NCBI GenBank assembly: GCA_030431435.1
Contig: JAUIJI010000009.1
Span: forward strand, 1-44,498
Reading direction: 5' to 3'
DNA from: Alphaproteobacteria bacterium
Lineage (GTDB): Bacteria; Pseudomonadota; Alphaproteobacteria; Sphingomonadales; Sphingomonadaceae
DNA length: 44,498 nucleotides
The position numbers and the translations under genes are program-made. Positions 21,886 to 35,345 of the stretch are shown in pieces. The notes beneath the pieces are model-generated. The model did no database searches and was not told the DNA's origin. It saw only the letters and a program-made list of their open reading frames with translations. The first letter of the stretch is position 1, and each line of letters opens with the position of its first letter.

Positions 21886-24108
21886 TCAGTAGTTTGATAG
21901 GATCGTGAGCGACTGCGTATCGAGCGGCAGGCCGCGGGCCTGCAGTTCCAGCTCACGCGCGCGCAGGGTTTTCTGCGCGTCAATCAGGAAGGCGTGGATC
22001 GCCTTCACCTGCTCCTCGTTCAAGCGGTCATCCCAACGCGGCATGCCATTGTGCAGCAGCAGCCCTTCCAGCACGATCTGGTTGAAAGCCGCATGCACGC
22101 CGCTGTTCATCCGCCGCAAGTCCGGCAGGGGTGCGCGCGGCTGGTTCGAATGGCAGATGGTGCAGTTCTCTGTGAACAGGCCGGCACCCATGGCGATCAT
22201 TTCCGGCGTCGCATCCTCGAACTGCGCAGGCGGTTCGTCCGCCGGTTGCAGCGGCGGCAGGTCATCGGGCACGGGCACCTCGCCCCCGCCGATGCGGAAC
22301 ACCAGCAGCCGGTTGCGATTGCCCTTGCCATAGGCGGCTGCGTAGTTGGGGACAAAGCCCCAGCCACCGCCACCCCAGCCGGTCGCCACCGCGACATACT
22401 GCACGCCGTCCACCGAATAGGTCATGGGAGCTGCCATGATGGTGGAACCCGTGTCCACGCTCCAAAGTTCCTCGCCCGTATCGGCGTCGCGGGCAAACAG
22501 CTTGCCCGCCGCATTGCCGTGGAAGACGATCCCGCTCTGCGTGGCGAGTGCGCCCTGCCGGTCCTGCCAGCCGAGCGAATCCACCGCCCATTTGGTTGCG
22601 CCTGTCAGCGGATCGATGGCGCGGAACTGGCTGGTAAAGGGCTGGTCTTTCACCCATTGCCAGTGCGGATGATTTTGCACGGCTTCGAGAACAGGCGGCG
22701 GCAGTGTGGGTGCCGCTGCTTCAAGATCGGGGGTGAAGAGGATTGCGGCGCCTGCATTCAGGAATTTTTCCTGCCGCGCCACATCATCAACCGGGCCGGG
22801 CAGCCACAGCAAGTTCCCCATATCGAGCACATGCGCGAAATAGGTGTTGCGGCCGGGATCATACGCCGCCGGGTACCAGTTGCGCGCCCCGGGCGATCCG
22901 GGGAACACGATCTGCGGCCTGTCCGTGTAATCGGCCCAGTCCATGCGCACATTGGGGCGGCCAGCCTCGTAATCCCAGCCATCCGCCCAGTTCGTGCGGA
23001 CGATCGGATTGGCGGCCAGCGCCTCGCCCGTTTCGCGATCAACCACGAAGAAGAAGCCGTTCTTCGGCGTGTGCAGGATGACGGGGCGCTGCTCGCCGTT
23101 CACGTCGATATTCGCCAGCAGCATGGGCTGGGTGGCGGTAAGGTCCCAGTTGTCTTCCGGCGTTTCCTGCAAATACCATTTCATCTCGCCGCTTGTCCGG
23201 TCGATGGCCACCAGCGAGTTGAGGTAGAGGTTATCGCCGCCACCGGGTGATCGGATCGCCTGCGGATAGGGACCGCCATTGCCGGTGCCGATGATCACCT
23301 GGTCGAATTCGGGATCATAGGTGATGGCATCCCACACCGTCCCGCCGCCGCCGATGTCCCAGCGCGTTTCCTCGCTCCAGCTATCCAGCGCCGCATCCAG
23401 TTCAGCATGTTCCTGCGGGCCGAGAGCCGGATCGCGCGGAACGGTGAAGAAGCGCCATGCCTCTTCCCCGCTTTCCACGTGATAGGCGGTGACATAGCCG
23501 CGCGCGTCATATTCGCTGCCCGCATTGCCGATCACCACCAGGTTTCCGGCAAGTTCAGGCGCGCCGGTGGAGGAATACCCACGGGTCTTGTCGATGATGG
23601 TGTCGGCCGACCATTCGATCGCCCCGGTTGCGGCATCCAGTGCATAGAGAACGCCGTCAGCAGCGCCCACGATCACCTTGTCCGCGCCATCGGGGCCTTG
23701 CGAAACCGCAACCCCGCGATTGGCCCAGTCACAGCAGATCGAACGGGTAATCTGCATGTCCATCTCGGGCGTGAAGGTCCACAATTCCTCACCCGTCGCG
23801 GCATTCAGCGCATAGACCCGGCCCAGCACGCCGGAGGTGTACATCACCCCGTCGATGACAACCGGCGTTGCTTCCTGCACGCGTGCGCTGCCGAGATCAT
23901 ATTCCCATGCGAGGCCAAGCTCTGCGACATTGGATGGATTGATGTCCTCCAGCCGCGAGAAGTGGCTCTCGGCCCAGTCACCGCCGGGATTGTCCCAGTT
24001 TTCGCCCGCGCCATAGGTGGCGGTGTCGATGCTGGCGGGATCGAAGGAATCGCCGCAAGATGCCAGCGCGAGCGCGGCAAGTGTGGCAAGGCCAAGCTTC
24101 TTCATCAT
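21886..24108 (-). CDS. PQQ-dependent dehydrogenase with C-terminal cytochrome c domain, predicted lipoprotein
   Basis: Vicinal Cys pair ITRSICCDWANRG, GGGDNLYLNSLVAIDRTSG, heme site CTICH; ATGATG start overlaps upstream stop. Confidence 0.9.
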   Translation of the reverse strand: MMKKLGLATLAALALASCGDSFDPASIDTATYGAGENWDNPGGDWAESHFSRLEDINPSNVAELGLAWEYDLGSARVQEATPVVIDGVMYTSGVLGRVYALNAATGEELWTFTPEMDMQITRSICCDWANRGVAVSQGPDGADKVIVGAADGVLYALDAATGAIEWSADTIIDKTRGYSSTGAPELAGNLVVIGNAGSEYDARGYVTAYHVESGEEAWRFFTVPRDPALGPQEHAELDAALDSWSEETRWDIGGGGTVWDAITYDPEFDQVIIGTGNGGPYPQAIRSPGGGDNLYLNSLVAIDRTSGEMKWYLQETPEDNWDLTATQPMLLANIDVNGEQRPVILHTPKNGFFFVVDRETGEALAANPIVRTNWADGWDYEAGRPNVRMDWADYTDRPQIVFPGSPGARNWYPAAYDPGRNTYFAHVLDMGNLLWLPGPVDDVARQEKFLNAGAAILFTPDLEAAAPTLPPPVLEAVQNHPHWQWVKDQPFTSQFRAIDPLTGATKWAVDSLGWQDRQGALATQSGIVFHGNAAGKLFARDADTGEELWSVDTGSTIMAAPMTYSVDGVQYVAVATGWGGGGWGFVPNYAAAYGKGNRNRLLVFRIGGGEVPVPDDLPPLQPADEPPAQFEDATPEMIAMGAGLFTENCTICHSNQPRAPLPDLRRMNSGVHAAFNQIVLEGLLLHNGMPRWDDRLNEEQVKAIHAFLIDAQKTLRARELELQARGLPLDTQSLTILSNY

Positions 24109-25009
24109 TTGGGCCACTGGTCCTGGTACTGTTCGAACACGCTCTTGAGGCTGCGCGGCTTCTTGCCGGTGATGCGTTCCACGGCATCGGAATCGATATC
24201 CATAAAGCCTTCGCGGATTGTCCGAAGGTCACCATTCCCTCGCTCGCCCACGGAATCGGCGTTTCGGGCGTGATGTCTTCCGACTTGCGCATCGCACCGA
24301 TCGAATCGAAATACTGGTACATGCCTTCTTCATCGACCTGCTGGATTTCGATCGGCTTGCCGGTCATTTCACTCACCAGCGCCATCGCCTCGGGCACGGT
24401 CCACAGCTTCGGCCCGCTGACTTCGTAGACCTTGTTTTCGTGGCCTTCCTGCGTCAGCACCGCCACTGCGGTCGCCACGCAGTCGTCGCGGCTGATGATC
24501 GGCACGCGGCCGTCACCCGTATTTTCCATTTTCGAACCGGCCATCAGCGCAGGAATGGCCATCGCGGTGGCAACGGCTTCTGCATAGAGGCTGTTGCGCA
24601 GGATGGTGAAGGCAAGGCCCGATTCGCCCAGCAGCTTTTCGGTTGCGATATGGTCAAACCCCTCGACCGAGGGGTTGCCGGGTTTGCCCACGCCGAGCAG
24701 CGAGGTGTAGACTATGTGCTTCACCCCAGCGGCCTTGGCGGCATTGATGGCATTGCCATGCTGGCGCGCGCGCTGGCCGACCATGGTGGTGGAGATCAGC
24801 AGCAGCTTTTCGCCGCCTGCCATCGCGTCTTCCAGCCCGTCCGGCGAATCGAAATCGGCAGCACGCACCTCGGCACCGCGTGCGGCAAGGTCTGCCAGCT
24901 TGTCGGTCGAGCGCGACAGCGCGATCACTTGTTCGCCCATATCAAGCAGCTGTGACGCGGCGGCATGGCCGAACTGTCCGGACGCACCGGAAACGATAAT
25001 CTTGCCCAT
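24105..25009 (-). CDS. NmrA-like NAD(P)-binding protein; coding sequence appears frameshifted near 24211-24220
   Basis: MGKIIVSGASGQFGHAAASQLL Rossmann start. The computed ORF runs on to 23978 in a non-native frame; the alternative frame gives REGFMDIDSDAVERITGKKPRSLKSVFEQYQDQWPK and stops at 24105. Confidence 0.8.
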
Positions 25010-25084: not shown

Positions 25085-25582
25085 GTGACCAAACTGACTG
25101 TCGAAGACCGCCTGGGCCTGCAGGATCTCATCGCCGATTACAGCTGGGCGCTGGATACCGGCGATGCCGATGCGCTGGTGGAATGTTTCACCGAAGACTG
25201 CCTGATGAGCGAGGAAGTGTTCGACGAACCCGATATCTGGAACGGGCACGAAGGGATTCGCGGCCTGATGAACCATTATGCCAATGCCGAGGGTTTTCCC
25301 GGCAGGCAGCATCACGTCACGCAGGTGAAGTACTTCCCGCAAGATGATGGCAGCGTGAAACTGAAAAGCTTCGCCTTCGTTACCGAATGCCATGACGAAC
25401 CGCCCTTCGAACTGCGCTTCTGCGGCTGGTATGACGATCATGCGGTGAAGGGCGCGGACGGCAAGTGGCGCTTCCAGACGCGCATCGTGCGATTGTGGGA
25501 TGGCGAAGTGCTGAAGAACTTCCCCGGCCGCGGCCACTGGGTGCCGCGCAAGCGCCCCGCTTCGCTGATCATCAAGAAATAG
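25085..25582 (+). CDS. SnoaL-like/NTF2-like protein
   Basis: LQDLIADYSWALDTGDADALVECFTEDCLM; GTG start with GAGGGAGAG Shine-Dalgarno. Confidence 0.82.
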   Translation: MTKLTVEDRLGLQDLIADYSWALDTGDADALVECFTEDCLMSEEVFDEPDIWNGHEGIRGLMNHYANAEGFPGRQHHVTQVKYFPQDDGSVKLKSFAFVTECHDEPPFELRFCGWYDDHAVKGADGKWRFQTRIVRLWDGEVLKNFPGRGHWVPRKRPASLIIKK

Positions 25583-25644
25583 GTCGGCTCTGGCGCTGTT
25601 GGCCGACCCGCAGTAGGTTGCGGGCAAACAGGGGAGAGAATTCG

Positions 25645-27213
25645 ATGACACTCAAGGCATTGTTCGGCATTGGCGGATCGATTGCCGCACTGGCGCTTTC
25701 CGCGCCTGCCCATGCCGCCTGCGCGGATCTTGCGGCGATGGACATCGATGGCGGCACGATCACTTCTGCAGAAGTGGTGGCCGCCGGAGGCTTCGAAGCG
25801 CCGCCCAGCGGGTTTGGCCCGCCTCCGGGCATCGCCGAATCGCCCTTTGCCGATGTGCCGCAATTCTGCCGCGTGCGGATGACGCTGACGCCCACCAGCG
25901 ATTCCGACATCAAGAGCGAGGTCTGGCTGCCGCTGTCGGGCTGGAACGGCAAATATGTGGGCGTGGGCAATGGCATCTGGGCGGGCTCGATCTCCTATAC
26001 CGAAATGGGCCGCAACGTTGCCCGCAACTATGCCACCGCTGCCACCGATACCGGCCATGTCGGCAACGGGCTGACCGCAGAATGGGCGATCGGCCATCCG
26101 GAGAAGCTGGTCGATTTCGGGCACCGCGCGGTTCACGTCACCACCGTGGCGGCGAAAGCCGTGGTGGAGGAGTTCTATGGCCGGGCGCCTTCGCTCTCGA
26201 TCTGGAACAGCTGCTCCACCGGCGGGCGGCAGGGCCTGATGGCGGCGCATCGCTATCCCGAAGATTTCGACGCGATCTCGTCCATGGCACCCGCCAACCC
26301 GATGACCGACCTGATGACGCAGAGCATGTGGCAAGGCTGGCAGCCGCAGCGATTCGGCGTGCGTATCACGCCTGCCGAGCTGGGGCTGGTCCACGGCGAG
26401 ATCCTGCGTTCGTGCGATGCGCTGGACGGGGTAGCAGACGGGGTGGTCGGCCGCCCGCTGCAATGCCGCCCGGACCTTGCCCGCCTGCAATGCGAGCCAG
26501 GGCAGGACAGCGGCTGCCTCAGTAGCGGCCAGTTGCAGGCCGTTTACAACCTGTTCGGCGGGACGCGCGCGGACAATGGGGAACTGCTGCTTCCCGGCTG
26601 GCCCTATGGCTCCGAAATGCAGATGGCGGCGCTGGTGATGGGCGAGGAACCCTTCCCCGTGGCGATGAGCTATTTCCGTGACCTGGCCTATGGCGGACGC
26701 AGCGACTGGAACTGGCGCACAACCGATTACCGCGATTACATGGTCGATGCCCGCAGCTATGGCGCTGACATCCTCAATGTTCCGGCTGACGGGCTTTCCG
26801 CCTTCTTCGCGCGCGGCGGCAAGCTGCTGCTCTCGCACGGCTGGGCGGACGGGTTGATCCCGGCCAACAACACGCTGGAGTTCTACCACGGCCTCTACAA
26901 CGCGCTGCCGCTGGAACAGGCGCAACAGCAGACCCGGCTGTTCATGGCGCCGGGCATGGATCACTGCTCCGGCGGTGTGGGGCCGAGCGATTTCGACACG
27001 CTGGGCACGGTGGATGCCTGGGCGACGACGGGCGTCGCGCCCGATCGCATCATTGCCACCCGTCCGGTGCAGGCAGCTGGCGGCTTCGGTGGTCCTCCGC
27101 CCCCTCCGCGCGAGCCGATGGAGCGCCCGCTCTGCGCATGGCCGATGGTGGCCATTCATGATGGCGAGGGTGATCCCGCTGTCGCGAGCAGCTTCAGCTG
27201 CGGACTGGAATGA
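25645..27213 (+). CDS. Tannase/feruloyl esterase family protein, secreted
   Basis: Signal peptide; WNSCSTGGRQG nucleophile, GWADGLIPANNT, MDHCSGG (CS-D-HC arrangement). Confidence 0.92.
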   Translation: MTLKALFGIGGSIAALALSAPAHAACADLAAMDIDGGTITSAEVVAAGGFEAPPSGFGPPPGIAESPFADVPQFCRVRMTLTPTSDSDIKSEVWLPLSGWNGKYVGVGNGIWAGSISYTEMGRNVARNYATAATDTGHVGNGLTAEWAIGHPEKLVDFGHRAVHVTTVAAKAVVEEFYGRAPSLSIWNSCSTGGRQGLMAAHRYPEDFDAISSMAPANPMTDLMTQSMWQGWQPQRFGVRITPAELGLVHGEILRSCDALDGVADGVVGRPLQCRPDLARLQCEPGQDSGCLSSGQLQAVYNLFGGTRADNGELLLPGWPYGSEMQMAALVMGEEPFPVAMSYFRDLAYGGRSDWNWRTTDYRDYMVDARSYGADILNVPADGLSAFFARGGKLLLSHGWADGLIPANNTLEFYHGLYNALPLEQAQQQTRLFMAPGMDHCSGGVGPSDFDTLGTVDAWATTGVAPDRIIATRPVQAAGGFGGPPPPPREPMERPLCAWPMVAIHDGEGDPAVASSFSCGLE

Positions 27214-27221
27214 TGTGAGCG

Positions 27222-27247
27222 GGTGCCGCGCCTAGCCGCGCGGCACC
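27222..27247. terminator. Hairpin between convergent genes
   Basis: GGTGCCGCGC-CTAGCC-GCGCGGCACC, 10-bp perfect stem. Confidence 0.65.
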
Positions 27248-27762
27248 AGCACCCAGCCGAGCACCGTGCCCGGATCGCTGGCGGCAGCAAAGCGCCTGAC
27301 CTGCGGCAGCTCGCTCGCCTGCGGGTTTGCTGCCCAAGCGGCCAGCAGTTCCACCCAGTTGGCACCTGCACTTGAAGCCACGCGGTTGAGCGCGTTCCAC
27401 CCCGGTGACAGGGTGAAGCCTTCGCAAGTGCCATCGCAGCCGCGCAATTCGGTGGCGAGGACATAGCCTTCCTCCAGCGCGACTTCGCCAATCAGCAACG
27501 CTTCGGCATGGCGGCTGACACCGGCGACCAGCGCGGGACGATCAGCCAGAACTTCGCGGGCAAAGCGGATCGCGTCACCTCCGATGGCGCGGGTACGGGC
27601 ACCAGCCGCGCGCCCGGCATCGGCAAAGCGCCTTCCGGCGATCAGGCTGTCATCGTGGAGCAGCAGCGATTGCCCCCCGGTCTTCCATTGCCAGCTGGCA
27701 AGGCCTGCCACTGTCGGCACGGCCAGCGCGCCAAGCATCATTCCGCGGCGGGAAACCTTCAT
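27232..27762 (-). CDS. Uncharacterised protein with Tat-like signal
   Basis: N-terminus MKVSRRGMMLGALAVPTVAGLASW; CDGTC motif; ATGA overlap with upstream cytochrome c gene. Confidence 0.75.
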   Translation of the reverse strand: MKVSRRGMMLGALAVPTVAGLASWQWKTGGQSLLLHDDSLIAGRRFADAGRAAGARTRAIGGDAIRFAREVLADRPALVAGVSRHAEALLIGEVALEEGYVLATELRGCDGTCEGFTLSPGWNALNRVASSAGANWVELLAAWAANPQASELPQVRRFAAASDPGTVLGWVLVPRG

Positions 27763-28190
27763 TGTGGTCCTCCCGCCGGTGTCGGCTCGATGTGCGGTCC
27801 GGCCGCGAGGTAATCCGCAATTTCCTGCAGGTCTTCGTCCGACACTTCGCCGCGCGGGATGGACGGCATGTTGCCGATGCCAAGGCGCGCTGCGGAGATC
27901 ACATAATCTGCTGTCAGATTGTCCCGCGCCTCCAGCAAGGAAACCTCCATACGGCGACCGAGCAGGCCGGTGCCCATGCCGTTCGGCCCATGGCACATGA
28001 TGCAGTATTCGATGTATTTCGCTTCGCCCCCGGTCGCTTCGGGCCGCGATGCCATGGTGATGGGTTGCGGCATCGGCGGCGGACCGGCAGCAGCGGTTTC
28101 ATCACCGCCTGAGCCGTCTCCGCCGGTACATGCGGCGAGCAAAAATGCTGCAGCAATCAGTGCAGCATAAGGTGCAGCAAAATTCCTCAT
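27759..28190 (-). CDS. Cytochrome c subunit of a flavocytochrome (4-cresol dehydrogenase/eugenol hydroxylase-like)
   Basis: Lipobox LLAAC, heme site CIMCH, YVISAARLGIGNMPSIP; ATGA overlap with flavoprotein gene. Confidence 0.85.
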   Translation of the reverse strand: MRNFAAPYAALIAAAFLLAACTGGDGSGGDETAAAGPPPMPQPITMASRPEATGGEAKYIEYCIMCHGPNGMGTGLLGRRMEVSLLEARDNLTADYVISAARLGIGNMPSIPRGEVSDEDLQEIADYLAAGPHIEPTPAGGPQ

Positions 28191-29749
28191 TGTCCGCGCT
28201 CCCCTGCGAAGTTTCTCGGCCATATGCCGCTCTTGCCCGGGGCGATGATGCCGTTGGGATCGAGGGCATTCTTCACCTTCTCGTTCAGGCGCAGCAAAGC
28301 GTTGTTATTGAAGTCATAAGTGCTGGCAACCAGGTCCATGTAATCAAGGTGGGTGCGGTATTCGCCGTAACCCTGTTCCTTGGCATCAGCCACCAGCGTG
28401 CGGAAGAAGGGATCCACCTTCGCCATCATCTCCGGATCGTCCTTGTTGAAGACCATCGCGTTGACATTGGTGAGGTGGCGTTCGCCGAATGCGAAGCTGC
28501 CCTGGTAGTCCATCCCGTATTCCTGATAGCGGGCATAGGTTCGCTGGAATTGTGCCAGCGCCTTGTCGCCATTCTGTTCGATGATCGGCGAGAAGCCGAT
28601 ATGACCGCCGCGTCCGCCGTACCAGTTGACGTTCTGCATCGGGAAGGTGAGCGGCGTGCCGGTCCAGCCGGTATATTCCAGCGGCTCACCCCTGACCCAG
28701 CTCGTCGGCTTGATGGCCATGGGGCCGGCATTGCCGATCGCCTCTTCAAGGATCTTGTAGGCCGCCTTGTTCACGTCCTCGCGGCCATAGAGGCGCAGTG
28801 ACACACCCCACCAGCCGATGTTGAACTGCTTGCGGATGGCATCGATCACGCTGTCGGACAGCGCGCCGGGCTCGTCGGTCCAGTCCGTGCGGCGGGTGAG
28901 CACGGCGGCTGCGCGCATCCAGTTGCCGATCGACGGGCTCTGCGTCAGCACACGCTCGCGCCGCAAGGGAGCGATGGTATCCACCATCACCTTCAGGTCT
29001 TCCGGCTTGTCGAATTCGACATCCATGCCCATCAGGCTTTCCGGCTCGGGCATCATCCACATGCCCATTTTGGTCACGATGCCGAAGTTGGACTGGACGA
29101 ACATCTGGTCCCACGCCGGGCCGAAGCCGAAGGGATAGGCGGACCATGTCGGCGCGTTGGAGAAGGCGCCCATGCCGGTACGCACCAGGTCGCCATCCGG
29201 CAGCACCACCTCGAGCCCGCAGATATTCTTGGTGTGCTCGCCATAGGGCGTGTAGCCCACGCCGCGATCGAGCGCATTGCCCATGACCGAACCCCAGCTG
29301 TTGCCGGGGGTCGAGAGCCAATAGGGCAGGTTGTTGCGCTGCACATAATCATAGAGATCATAGAAGCCGACGCCCGGCTCCAGGATCACCGTGCCCAGTT
29401 CCTCGTCGAACTCGATCTTCTTCATCCGCGAGAGATCAAGCACCACAGAACCTGCGAGAACGGGCGCGGTGCCGCCATAGCCAAGGTTCTTGCCGCGGGC
29501 GATCGGGAACAGCGGCAGGCGGTACTGGTTGGCGATGCGCACCACCGCCTGCACTTCCTCCACGCTTTCGCAGGCAACGGCGCCCGAAGGATGGTGTGCT
29601 TCGTCATTCACCGCGAACTTGTCGAGATAGGTTGTGCGATCCAGTTCCTCGAAGAAGACCTTGTTCGCGCCCAGCACGCTTTCAAAGGCGCGCTGTGCCT
29701 GGGTCAGCTTCTGGAGCGTGAAATCGGGGGGAAGGCGGAGTTCTGCCAT
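28187..29749 (-). CDS. FAD-dependent oxidase/dehydrogenase of the vanillyl-alcohol oxidase/4-cresol dehydrogenase family
   Basis: PLFPIARGKNLGYGGTAPVLAGSVVLDLSRM; GEYRTHLDYMDLVASTYDFNNNALLRLNEKVKNALDPNGIIAPGKSGIWP. Confidence 0.92.
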   Translation of the reverse strand: MAELRLPPDFTLQKLTQAQRAFESVLGANKVFFEELDRTTYLDKFAVNDEAHHPSGAVACESVEEVQAVVRIANQYRLPLFPIARGKNLGYGGTAPVLAGSVVLDLSRMKKIEFDEELGTVILEPGVGFYDLYDYVQRNNLPYWLSTPGNSWGSVMGNALDRGVGYTPYGEHTKNICGLEVVLPDGDLVRTGMGAFSNAPTWSAYPFGFGPAWDQMFVQSNFGIVTKMGMWMMPEPESLMGMDVEFDKPEDLKVMVDTIAPLRRERVLTQSPSIGNWMRAAAVLTRRTDWTDEPGALSDSVIDAIRKQFNIGWWGVSLRLYGREDVNKAAYKILEEAIGNAGPMAIKPTSWVRGEPLEYTGWTGTPLTFPMQNVNWYGGRGGHIGFSPIIEQNGDKALAQFQRTYARYQEYGMDYQGSFAFGERHLTNVNAMVFNKDDPEMMAKVDPFFRTLVADAKEQGYGEYRTHLDYMDLVASTYDFNNNALLRLNEKVKNALDPNGIIAPGKSGIWPRNFAGERGQ

Positions 29750-29764
29750 GGTTTCTCTTCTTTC

Positions 29765-30529
29765 CTAGCTGGCCGACCACTGCGTGCGCGCGGGCGGCCT
29801 GGTCCCGGCATCAAGCCGGATCACCTCGCCGTTGATAAGCGGGTTCTCGATGATGAACAAAGCGGTGCGGGCGAATTCCTCTGCCCGGCCTGCCCGGCGT
29901 GGAAACTCGCAGTCCTTGAGCAGTTCCGCCACGAAATCCTCCGGCAGGAAGGCCACCATCGGCGTGGCCATGAAACCGGGGGCGATGCCGGCGCAGCGGA
30001 CATTGTGCCTGCCCATGTCGCGCGTCCACACCAGCGTTAGCCCGGCAAGTGCGGCCTTGGCGGCGGTATAGGCGGTCATGCCTTCCTGGCCTTCGAAACT
30101 GGCGATGGAGCAGGCGTTGATGATCACGCCGCGCTCTGCATCCAGGCCGCAAACCTCGTTGCCCGTCATGCGGTGGGCAACTTCGGCGGTGACGTTGATC
30201 GCGCCCATCAGGTTCACGTCGATCACCTTGCGGATCGCATCGACATCTCCCGGCCCATCGGCATCGGCAATGGCGCCAATCCCGCCGATGCCGGCCGAAT
30301 TCACCAGGATGTGAATGTCGCCGAAGCCTTCGGCCACCTGCTCTACAGCGCGTTTGACCTGGGCCGGGTCGGACACATCGCAGGTAATGAACGCAGCGCC
30401 TTCGGGCGCATCACCGCCAAGATCGAGGCTGACCACCCGGCAGCCGCGCGCCATCAGGGCGATGGCCGTGGCCTCGCCCAGTCCCGAATTGCCGCCCGTG
30501 ATGACAGCGAGCTTTCCGCCCGGATCCAT
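29765..30529 (-). CDS. SDR family oxidoreductase
   Basis: VITGGNSGLGEATAIAL, NSAG, YTAAKAAL motifs. Confidence 0.92.
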   Translation of the reverse strand: MDPGGKLAVITGGNSGLGEATAIALMARGCRVVSLDLGGDAPEGAAFITCDVSDPAQVKRAVEQVAEGFGDIHILVNSAGIGGIGAIADADGPGDVDAIRKVIDVNLMGAINVTAEVAHRMTGNEVCGLDAERGVIINACSIASFEGQEGMTAYTAAKAALAGLTLVWTRDMGRHNVRCAGIAPGFMATPMVAFLPEDFVAELLKDCEFPRRAGRAEEFARTALFIIENPLINGEVIRLDAGTRPPARTQWSAS

Positions 30530-33238: not shown

Positions 33239-33772
33239 TCAGTCTTCGTCGGGCTTGGTAGCCTCGAGGAAAGCCGAACGGCCCTCCTCATCCGTCGCTT
33301 CCAGCTTTGCGATCAGGCGGCCGACCACATCGCCGAGGCCCGCAAGCTCGGCATCTTCGAGTTCGGCAAACAGGTAGTCCGCAACCTTTTCGCTCTGCGG
33401 CCGCATCACCGCATAGAGACGCTGCCCCTCCTCGGTCAGCGTCAGCCACTTGCGGCGGCGGTTGGCGGTATCGCGCTCCACGTTGACACGCCCGTCACGC
33501 TGAAGGGTGGCGACCGCTCGGCTCACGCTCATCACGTTCACGCCTGTCAGTTCGGCCACTTCGTGGCTCGCGGTGCGACCCAGCGCACCGATGCTCATCA
33601 GCAGGCGGAACTCGTTCAGCGAGATGCGATAGCGGTGAGCCAGATGGGTGCTGAACGGTGCCATGAGCCGGTTCTGCAACTTGAGCAGCTCATGCAGCAG
33701 GCCCGATTTATAGGAAATGTTTCCATCCGGCCGGTTTTCTTTCAGTTTTGCCGCGCTGTTCTGCACTTCCAC
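33239..33772 (-). CDS. MarR family transcriptional regulator
   Basis: ISLNEFRLLMSIGALGRTASHEVAELTGVNVMSVSRAVATLQRDGRVNVERDTANRRRKWLTLTEEG winged HTH. Confidence 0.93.
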   Translation of the reverse strand: MEVQNSAAKLKENRPDGNISYKSGLLHELLKLQNRLMAPFSTHLAHRYRISLNEFRLLMSIGALGRTASHEVAELTGVNVMSVSRAVATLQRDGRVNVERDTANRRRKWLTLTEEGQRLYAVMRPQSEKVADYLFAELEDAELAGLGDVVGRLIAKLEATDEEGRSAFLEATKPDED

Positions 33773-33807
33773 CCCCTTTGAGCCGCAATGGCTGTTTGCG
33801 CCAACCG

Positions 33808-33819
33808 TAACACCTGTTA
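33808..33819. promoter_or_regulatory. Candidate operator site 3 (TAACACCTGTTA)
   Basis: TAACA-NN-TGTTA palindrome between marR and CCO2; reverse complement shares 20/25 positions with site 1. Confidence 0.6.
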
Positions 33820-33857
33820 GCGTTATGTCGAGGAATCACATGGGAGAACAAGCAGGC

Positions 33858-35345
33858 ATGACCGCCTTTCCGCAGACAATTCACTTTATCGGTACCAACA
33901 AGCCGCGCCGCGTCGAGATGTCGGTGCGCAACCTTGACGTCGAGGGCGAAATCCCCGCCGAGGTGGAAGGCGCCTTTTTCCGCGCTGTGCCGGACAACGC
34001 CCACGCGCCGATGTTCGACGATGATGTGGCGCTCAACCACGATGGCATGATCGCGCGCTTTCATTTCACCAAAGGGGCGGTGGATTTCGACATCAAATAT
34101 GTCGAGACCGAACGCTACCTGCTGGAAAAAGAAGCGCGCCGCGCCCTGTTCGGCCGTTACCGCAACCCCTTCACCGATGATCCCAGCGTCGAAGGCAAGG
34201 ACCGCACCGTCGCCAACACCACGCCGGTATGGCACGGTGGCCGCCTGTTCATGACCAAGGAAGACGGCCGCGGTTACGAGGTAAACCCGCACACGCTGGA
34301 GACCGTGGGCCGCTGGGATTACGAAGGAAAGCTCAAGAGCCAGACCTTCACCGCGCACCCGCGCATCGATCCCGAAACCGGCGAGCTGTTCTTCTTCGGC
34401 TATGAAGCTGGCGGGCTGTGCGATCCCAACGTCGCCTATGCCATTGCCGACAAGGACGGCAATCTCACCAGCGAGCAGTGGTTCGAGCAGCCCTATCTCT
34501 CGACGATCCACGATTTCGTGATCACCGAGAAATACGCGATCTTCCCGATCTTCCCCACGCTGGCTGACCTGGACCGGCTGAAGGCGGGCGGTGCGCACTG
34601 GGCGCATGACCAGACCAAGCCCAGCTATATCGGCATCATGCCGCGCTATGGCGATGTGTCGGAAATGGTCTGGATCGAAGGCCCGATCGGCGTTTCCTGC
34701 TTCCACGAAGTGAACGGCTTCGACGATGGCGACCTTGTCCATATCGACCTGTGCCTGACCGATACCAATGCCTTCGGCTTCATGCGCGAGGCAGGCGGCA
34801 TCCACCGCGAACAGCAGGACATCAAGGGCGCGCTCACCCGCTGGACCATCGACATGAGCAAGGACCAGCCGACGCTTGAAAGCCGCGAGATCGGCCCGAC
34901 GGGCGATCTGTGCCGCGTGGCCGATGCTGACCAGGGCCGCCCCTACAACCGCGCCTGGTACCTGACGATGAACCCGCAGGCCAAGGGACCGCCCATGCTC
35001 GGCGGACCGGTGGGTGCGAACTTCAACATGCTGCTGCGGATCGAGCCGGGCAATGGCCGGATCACGGGCATGGAAATCCCGCCCGGTTCGGCGATCAGCG
35101 AACCTGCGCATGTTCCTTCCAGCGAGGACGGCCACGGTGGCTGGCTGATGAGCGTGATCGATGTTCCCAACGGCCCTCCCGGACAATGCGACCCGGCGGA
35201 CTATTCCTCCGAATTGTGGATCGTGGAGGCCGATGCAGTCGAGAAAGGCCCCATCGCCAAGGTCAAGACCGGCCTCGCCCTGCGCAGCCAGGTCCACGGC
35301 ACATGGGTCAGCCGCGCCAAGCTGGATGCCAGCAAGGTGAAATGA
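33858..35345 (+). CDS. Carotenoid oxygenase family protein (lignostilbene dioxygenase-like), CCO2
   Basis: His contexts TAHPRID, IHDFVIT, FHEVNGF, VHGTWVS; GRYRNPFTDDPSV, MTKEDGRGYEVNPHTLETVG. Confidence 0.94.
   Translation: MTAFPQTIHFIGTNKPRRVEMSVRNLDVEGEIPAEVEGAFFRAVPDNAHAPMFDDDVALNHDGMIARFHFTKGAVDFDIKYVETERYLLEKEARRALFGRYRNPFTDDPSVEGKDRTVANTTPVWHGGRLFMTKEDGRGYEVNPHTLETVGRWDYEGKLKSQTFTAHPRIDPETGELFFFGYEAGGLCDPNVAYAIADKDGNLTSEQWFEQPYLSTIHDFVITEKYAIFPIFPTLADLDRLKAGGAHWAHDQTKPSYIGIMPRYGDVSEMVWIEGPIGVSCFHEVNGFDDGDLVHIDLCLTDTNAFGFMREAGGIHREQQDIKGALTRWTIDMSKDQPTLESREIGPTGDLCRVADADQGRPYNRAWYLTMNPQAKGPPMLGGPVGANFNMLLRIEPGNGRITGMEIPPGSAISEPAHVPSSEDGHGGWLMSVIDVPNGPPGQCDPADYSSELWIVEADAVEKGPIAKVKTGLALRSQVHGTWVSRAKLDASKVK

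Follow-up and report, generated by a model that had tools for sequence, protein, structure and literature searches.

The window, a 44,498-nucleotide stretch of DNA from a member of the Sphingomonadaceae, holds at 27232-30529 four minus-strand genes that are transcribed in the order SDR, flavoprotein, cytochrome c and a 176-aa protein. A gap of 15 bp separates the SDR and flavoprotein genes, and two ATGA overlaps join the flavoprotein, cytochrome c and 176-aa protein genes. An earlier note had described this as a coupled four-gene operon, and a coordinate check reproduced all of its positions exactly. The features of the locus are as follows.

29765-30529, minus strand: oxidoreductase of the SDR family, 254 aa, at the head of the operon (Pfam adh_short, E 3e-43)
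28187-29749, minus strand: VAO/PCMH-family FAD enzyme, 520 aa, without signal peptide (Pfam FAD_binding_4 and FAD-oxidase_C)
29300-29302, minus strand: flavoprotein Asn150 at the flavin N5 site, where VAD has Pro151 (alignments and column survey)
28601-28603, minus strand: His383 of the flavoprotein, predicted flavin-linking histidine (GGHIGFSP against GGHVGFSP in VAD)
28187-28190, minus strand: ATGA overlap of flavoprotein stop and cytochrome start (sequence)
27759-28190, minus strand: c-type cytochrome, 143 aa, predicted lipoprotein (Pfam Cytochrome_CBB3, E 5e-13)
28128-28139, minus strand: LAAC lipobox of the cytochrome, Sec/SPII-type (sequence)
27990-28004, minus strand: CIMCH, the one heme c attachment site of the cytochrome (sequence)
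27759-27762, minus strand: ATGA overlap of cytochrome stop and Tat protein start (sequence)
27232-27762, minus strand: 176-aa candidate Tat carrier, founding member of an unnamed family (iterated HMM family)
27697-27762, minus strand: Tat-type signal of the 176-aa protein, residues 1-22, S-R-R-G-M-M-L followed by a hydrophobic stretch (R5/R6 invariance)
27424-27438, minus strand: CDGTC motif of the 176-aa protein, unconserved in the family (central segment missing in short orthologs)

The length of the cytochrome is counted from the coupled ATG, its longest open reading frame beginning at 28223, and it weakly matches the PCMH cytochrome subunit 1dii_C (E 8e-4). The 176-aa protein has matches in 29 of the 301 genomes searched from the same bacterial family; a flavoprotein and a cytochrome c are encoded directly upstream of most of these homologs and of nearly all the strong ones. 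The arrangement is not due to chance, since the order flavoprotein, cytochrome c, 176-aa homolog recurs in nearly all strong matches within the bacterial family and, in 23 members of the 76-100% identity clade (counting the window), the SDR gene immediately precedes the flavoprotein gene.

The flavoprotein is a member of the VAO/PCMH family: it combines FAD_binding_4 with FAD-oxidase_C, and its solved homologs include VAO, EUGO and PCMH. Its closest solved structures are PDB 8s7n-8s7w (E 1e-135), which are of vanillyl alcohol dehydrogenase (VAD) from Marinicaulis flavus (PMC7617285). As the VAD alignment begins at flavoprotein residue 6, the enzyme has no N-terminal extension, and it carries no export signal. 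The predicted flavin-linking His383 is shared with VAD and the oxidases, whereas the PCMH/eugenol hydroxylase subtype has Tyr-linked FAD and no His at the VAO position. That subtype is also defined by a c-type cytochrome partner gene, which is present at 27759-28190 with its CIMCH site and ATGA coupling. The Leu that characterises the VAO/EUGO oxidase subtype at the flavin N5 site is replaced by Asn150; Asn occupies this site in one VAD variant chain (8s7t). The earlier note had pointed specifically to a 4-cresol dehydrogenase/eugenol hydroxylase type of complex, an assignment that we do not follow, the best relatives being VAD structures and the flavin-linking His of the VAD clade being kept.

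The 176-aa protein begins MKVSRRGMMLGALAVP... and matches no family in Pfam, NCBIfam or PDB, in agreement with the earlier note, which could name none. An AlphaFold model whose input included one 87% identical relative reached a mean pLDDT of 36. A family HMM seeded by the window protein alone, and iterated over six-frame translations until convergence, gathered 105 distinct sequences from alpha-, beta- and epsilonproteobacteria that adjoin VAO/PCMH flavoproteins. Their [S/T/D]-R-R-x-[F/V/L]-[L/M/I] motif is the Tat consensus, and a hydrophobic stretch comes after it; two more sequences, with Lys-Arg in place of Arg-Arg, were left out of this set. In an alignment of 34 diverse members no column is invariant except R5 and R6, and Asp D37 and Gly G81 are near-invariant. 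Pfam TAT_signal matches 11 of the 34, and the best PDB similarities of the family profile are to the Tat signal peptides of NapA and CueO. When signals are removed, the alphaproteobacterial and Burkholderiaceae profiles match with a probability of 97.5% (E 8e-12), so the mature domains are homologous and the linkage described below is no artefact of the Tat signal. Judged by sequence, the 176-aa protein is the founder of a large family without earlier description that is encoded beside VAO/PCMH flavoproteins.

Two further readings of the 176-aa protein can be set aside at this point. The CDGTC motif had been singled out by the earlier note and does occur at residues 109-113, but it is not a core motif since several orthologs (the short L021, L022 and L024-L026) have lost the entire central segment that carries it; its interpretation as a redox, heme or metal motif was dropped accordingly. 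Membership in, or descent from, the FAD-dehydrogenase small-subunit family PF13618 (Gluconate_2-dh3) is suggested by equal size, a Tat signal and a place beside a signal-less FAD enzyme and cytochrome c, and by the term hitchhiker used for the glucose dehydrogenase gamma subunit (PMC6719666). However, neither the 176-aa protein nor its family has a Pfam match to PF13618, and hhalign with signals removed gives a probability of ~0.1%, against 97.5% between the two halves of the new family. On these grounds membership was rejected, and we regard the relationship as highly improbable.

Co-occurrence with VAO-type flavoproteins, which the earlier note had proposed as a check, was found: members of the single-seed HMM lie beside flavoproteins in three proteobacterial classes. 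The converged family adjoins most of the flavoprotein loci collected, ~30 of them in Burkholderiaceae. A scan of genome contigs with the 176-aa protein alone reached one locus and a tblastn search for its plasmid relatives found none; more divergent family members, reached through the flavoprotein, adjoin plasmid-borne flavoproteins. Tat-type small genes also lie beside far more distant flavoproteins in plasmid records of Novosphingobium, Sphingobium, Caballeronia, Paraburkholderia, Massilia, Rhizobium, Roseomonas and Sulfuricurvum, the last being annotated by PGAP as a twin-arginine signal protein. Overall, the linkage holds in more than 100 loci with varied gene order, the small gene being upstream, downstream or divergent. 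The genome of the window itself encodes four VAO flavoproteins, each with a Tat-protein neighbour, and two of them flank one single candidate carrier gene. For six divergent Tat neighbours (L035, L042, L048, L186, L201 and L038), homology to the family was not established (best E 0.003, L038) and they are counted solely as Tat neighbours.

To quantify the linkage, 173 non-redundant flavoprotein loci were sorted by cytochrome c neighbour, Tat-protein neighbour and own N-terminal Tat signal. Tat signals were assigned by motif and hydrophobicity; own-Tat calls that the automatic step had made for L100, L122 and an L142 ORF did not survive inspection. A Tat-protein neighbour accompanies 117 of the 173 flavoproteins (108 detected by the HMM nearby on the same strand, 7 with a Tat protein that the last HMM run overlooked and 2 encoded on the opposite strand), 42 have neither such a neighbour nor an own Tat signal, and the remaining 14 have an own Tat signal, no Tat neighbour and a cytochrome c directly upstream. 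Tat in cis or trans is present in 92/101 loci with cytochrome c vs 39/72 without (Fisher 3e-8, p-values here being descriptive only because related sequences are not independent), and the pattern is unchanged at 34 clusters (60% identity). The 39 Tat-bearing loci without cytochrome c are mostly from Burkholderiaceae. As ~31 Burkholderiaceae loci keep the flavoprotein and the Tat protein together with no neighbouring cytochrome c, the partner of the Tat protein is the flavoprotein.

The 14 flavoproteins with their own Tat signal form one clade (100/100 support), which sits among clades whose gene order is cytochrome, Tat protein, flavoprotein. Tat neighbour and own Tat signal occur together in 0/173 flavoproteins, although the p-value of this exclusion overstates independence given the single origin of the clade; among flavoproteins with a carrier gene, none has its own Tat signal once two algorithmic matches are discarded by eye. 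The nesting looks as if the carrier had been replaced through fusion of a signal to the enzyme. Its members have Val at the N5 site and lack the flavin-linking His, like the Novosphingobium enzyme of PMC7617285. The N5-site residue within the family is Leu in oxidases and Pro or Ile in dehydrogenases (PMC7617285). Among flavoproteins with Leu at this site 0/19 have Tat in cis or trans, vs 131/150 of the others (Fisher 6e-15, again descriptive). The Tat route thus goes with enzymes for which cytochrome c is the expected acceptor and is missing where oxygen is expected. In the actinobacterial flavoproteins without cytochrome c (L037, L039, L049) no Tat route was seen.

The earlier note had viewed the 176-aa protein as a periplasmic partner or assembly factor. 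That direction was right, but the role can be narrowed to Tat export in trans because the gene is missing beside flavoproteins that bear a Tat signal themselves. The broader version, in which the 176-aa protein is exported alone by Tat and serves as a periplasmic assembly factor or third flavocytochrome subunit for docking or stability, would fit the tight coupling, the shared phylogenetic range and a Tat signal suited to a protein folded before export. We nevertheless consider it unlikely, as it leaves unexplained how the signal-less flavoprotein is exported, why the gene is absent beside own-Tat flavoproteins, and why Burkholderiaceae have kept it at loci that lack an adjacent cytochrome c.

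We propose instead that the 176-aa protein is a candidate Tat "hitchhiker" carrier that exports the signal-less flavoprotein of the same operon. Flavoproteins take up FAD in the cytoplasm, Tat exports folded proteins, and c-type cytochromes receive their heme in the periplasm; with FAD loaded inside and the cytochrome partner outside, a signal-less flavoprotein needs a carrier. The 176-aa protein is the operon's only component with a Tat signal, and TatC is encoded in the genome. Two marks of a hitchhiker pair are found, in the invariant R5/R6 of the 34 carrier-side members and in the window flavoprotein without an export signal of its own. The flavoprotein would fold and take up the FAD that is present in the cytoplasm, and there be bound by the 176-aa protein, whose twin-arginine signal would take the complex through the Tat translocase. 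The cytochrome c lipoprotein would be exported separately by Sec and receive its heme outside. In the periplasm the flavoprotein would meet the cytochrome c and pass it electrons, the substrates perhaps being 4-hydroxybenzyl-type phenols, probably lignin-derived; the carrier may also be retained as a subunit.

We put the probability of this carrier role at roughly 0.8, a value that takes account of several exceptional loci. Five loci (L123, L125, L126, L130 and L131) combine a flavoprotein and cytochrome c with no Tat signal in cis or nearby, and the genomes of all five hold another VAO locus with a Tat signal. Four clustered Asn-type flavoproteins (L142b, L148, L150 and L156) have neither cytochrome c nor carrier. 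One homolog of the 176-aa protein (L128) overlaps the gene of a TonB-dependent receptor, and no flavoprotein gene lies less than 12 kb away from it.

E. coli is the usual production host for VAO-type enzymes, and heterologous relatives are active as cytoplasmic enzymes. This general knowledge would allow for a flavoprotein that remains cytoplasmic, with the small exported protein a mere co-transcribed passenger. The linkage in more than 100 loci despite varied gene order, together with periplasmic cytochrome partners and a PCMH reported as periplasmic (Hopper 1985, as cited in PMC12724174), makes such an arrangement scarcely credible.

Export of the flavoprotein by way of its cytochrome has to be weighed as well. 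Sec transports chains in the unfolded state, and the cytochrome acquires its heme c outside, so a folded FAD protein cannot ride on it. BpfA, PchF and PcmG are without signals, their cytochromes have them, and guidance by the cytochrome signal has been proposed (PMC12724174, November 2025). Applied to the window, this would have the flavoprotein leave bound to cytochrome c through the latter's Sec/lipoprotein signal, as for BpfAB, and the Tat protein would have another job. Cytochrome and flavoprotein do form the complex, and PMC12724174, in which BpfAB was expressed with no third protein mentioned, credits a signal to the cytochrome alone. However, beyond the Sec argument above, the cluster of this kind in S. 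yanoikuyae SJTF8 (L038) has a 189-aa Tat-type gene between cytochrome and hydrolase, at the position of orf5017, unnamed in the main text of PMC12724174. We therefore judge cytochrome-guided export to be very unlikely.

Beyond the window, we think it probable, if somewhat less firmly than for the operon itself, that the new family, unrelated to known Tat co-export partners, acts in trans as the general export carrier for that half of the VAO/PCMH family which is cytochrome-linked, replaced in one lineage by a Tat signal on the enzyme, and that its presence marks periplasmic dehydrogenases as opposed to cytoplasmic oxidases. Such a family could explain how cytochrome-linked VAO/PCMH enzymes reach the periplasm, and a Tat carrier would be a simple answer to the periplasmic location of PCMH despite its signal-less flavoprotein. 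In a family with uses in lignin valorisation and the degradation of bisphenols, the carrier gene may serve as a genomic marker by which cytochrome-linked dehydrogenases can be told from oxidases that use oxygen. Reconstitution, as of BpfAB (PMC12724174) and VAD (PMC7617285), may be affected as well.

Among known systems, PchCF and BpfAB resemble the window operon in pairing a signal-less VAO/PCMH flavoprotein with a periplasmic c-type cytochrome; no carrier has been named for them so far, whereas the window operon has a candidate. The P. putida operon presumably holds pchX, which we take to be a gene of unexplained function, between pchC and pchF. This would be the position expected for a carrier and agrees with the order cytochrome, Tat protein, flavoprotein found at L041, L042, L047 and L057. 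Among the mainly open-access papers found on PchX, Tat and VAO/PCMH enzymes, none describes a carrier.

VAD and the window flavoprotein have the His and Asp around FAD in common and differ at the N5 site, with Pro151 in wild-type VAD and Asn150 in the window. A cytochrome acceptor is encoded in the window operon, whereas VAD has no known natural one and is inactive with bovine heart cytochrome c (PMC7617285). In the FAO superfamily, a Tat signal together with an adjacent cytochrome c is the mark of periplasmic flavin dehydrogenases of the NicA2/Pnao amine dehydrogenase type (PMC12224317). These enzymes carry the signal themselves and have another flavoprotein fold, unlike the signal-less window flavoprotein.

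Firm precedents for the proposed mechanism lie in other protein families. PaoA of E. coli carries PaoB and PaoC, and HybO carries HybC, through Tat (PMC4273604), so that one signal-bearing subunit takes signal-less partners across as the carrier would. Unlike these two, which are redox subunits of known fold, the 176-aa protein has no conserved recognised cofactor motif. For FAD glucose dehydrogenase, the gamma subunit has been described as a hitchhiker that secretion requires (PMC6719666), and in Burkholderia cepacia it is likewise a small Tat protein accompanying a signal-less FAD dehydrogenase and a c-type cytochrome. It shares no sequence homology with the 176-aa protein; its client is a GMC-fold enzyme rather than one of VAO/PCMH fold, and it is five-helix, whereas the sequence of the 176-aa protein suggests an alternating strand/helix pattern, perhaps that of a Rossmann-like alpha/beta domain.

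The Tat carrier, a protein family with a twin-arginine signal that is proposed to export the signal-less VAO/PCMH flavoprotein in trans, stays paired with the flavoprotein in Burkholderiaceae (L071-L100), and no cytochrome c gene lies near these pairs. At five loci that encode a flavoprotein and a cytochrome c (L123, L125, L126, L130 and L131), Tat signals are absent both from the flavoprotein itself and from its neighbourhood. Each of these five genomes has a carrier at another locus, and cross-use of carriers between loci is therefore possible.

The family also occurs in an unusual setting, at locus L128.

L128:3944-6525, minus strand, family homologue of 192 aa, overlapping a TonB-dependent receptor gene at its start

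No VAO flavoprotein is found within 12 kb of this homologue, and the carrier fold may here be reused for another client. The orthologues at L021, L022, L024, L025 and L026 are short (about 120-135 aa); they have lost the middle part that holds both cysteines of the CDGTC motif, but their Tat signal, core and conserved C-terminus remain.

The genome of the window encodes four VAO/PCMH flavoproteins (L059, L063 and L070; contigs C18 and C154). On C154 a single Tat carrier gene sits between the two flavoproteins of that contig, together with a 72-aa ORF bearing a second Tat-like start (MIVSRRLFMAGCASLPLVSS).

Within the window, three further genes form what looks like a lignin-aromatics island.

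21886-24117, PQQ quinoprotein
25465-27213, tannase-family gene
33717-35345, NOV2-type lignostilbene-alpha,beta-dioxygenase (862 bits to an NCBIfam equivalog)

In the flavoprotein of the window the flavin N5 site is naturally occupied by Asn (29300-29302), a residue common to many cytochrome-linked sphingomonad enzymes. The only contrast drawn at this site in published work is between Leu on one side and Pro, Ile or Val on the other; the Asn variant of the vanillyl alcohol dehydrogenase of Marinicaulis flavus is represented by PDB 8s7t.
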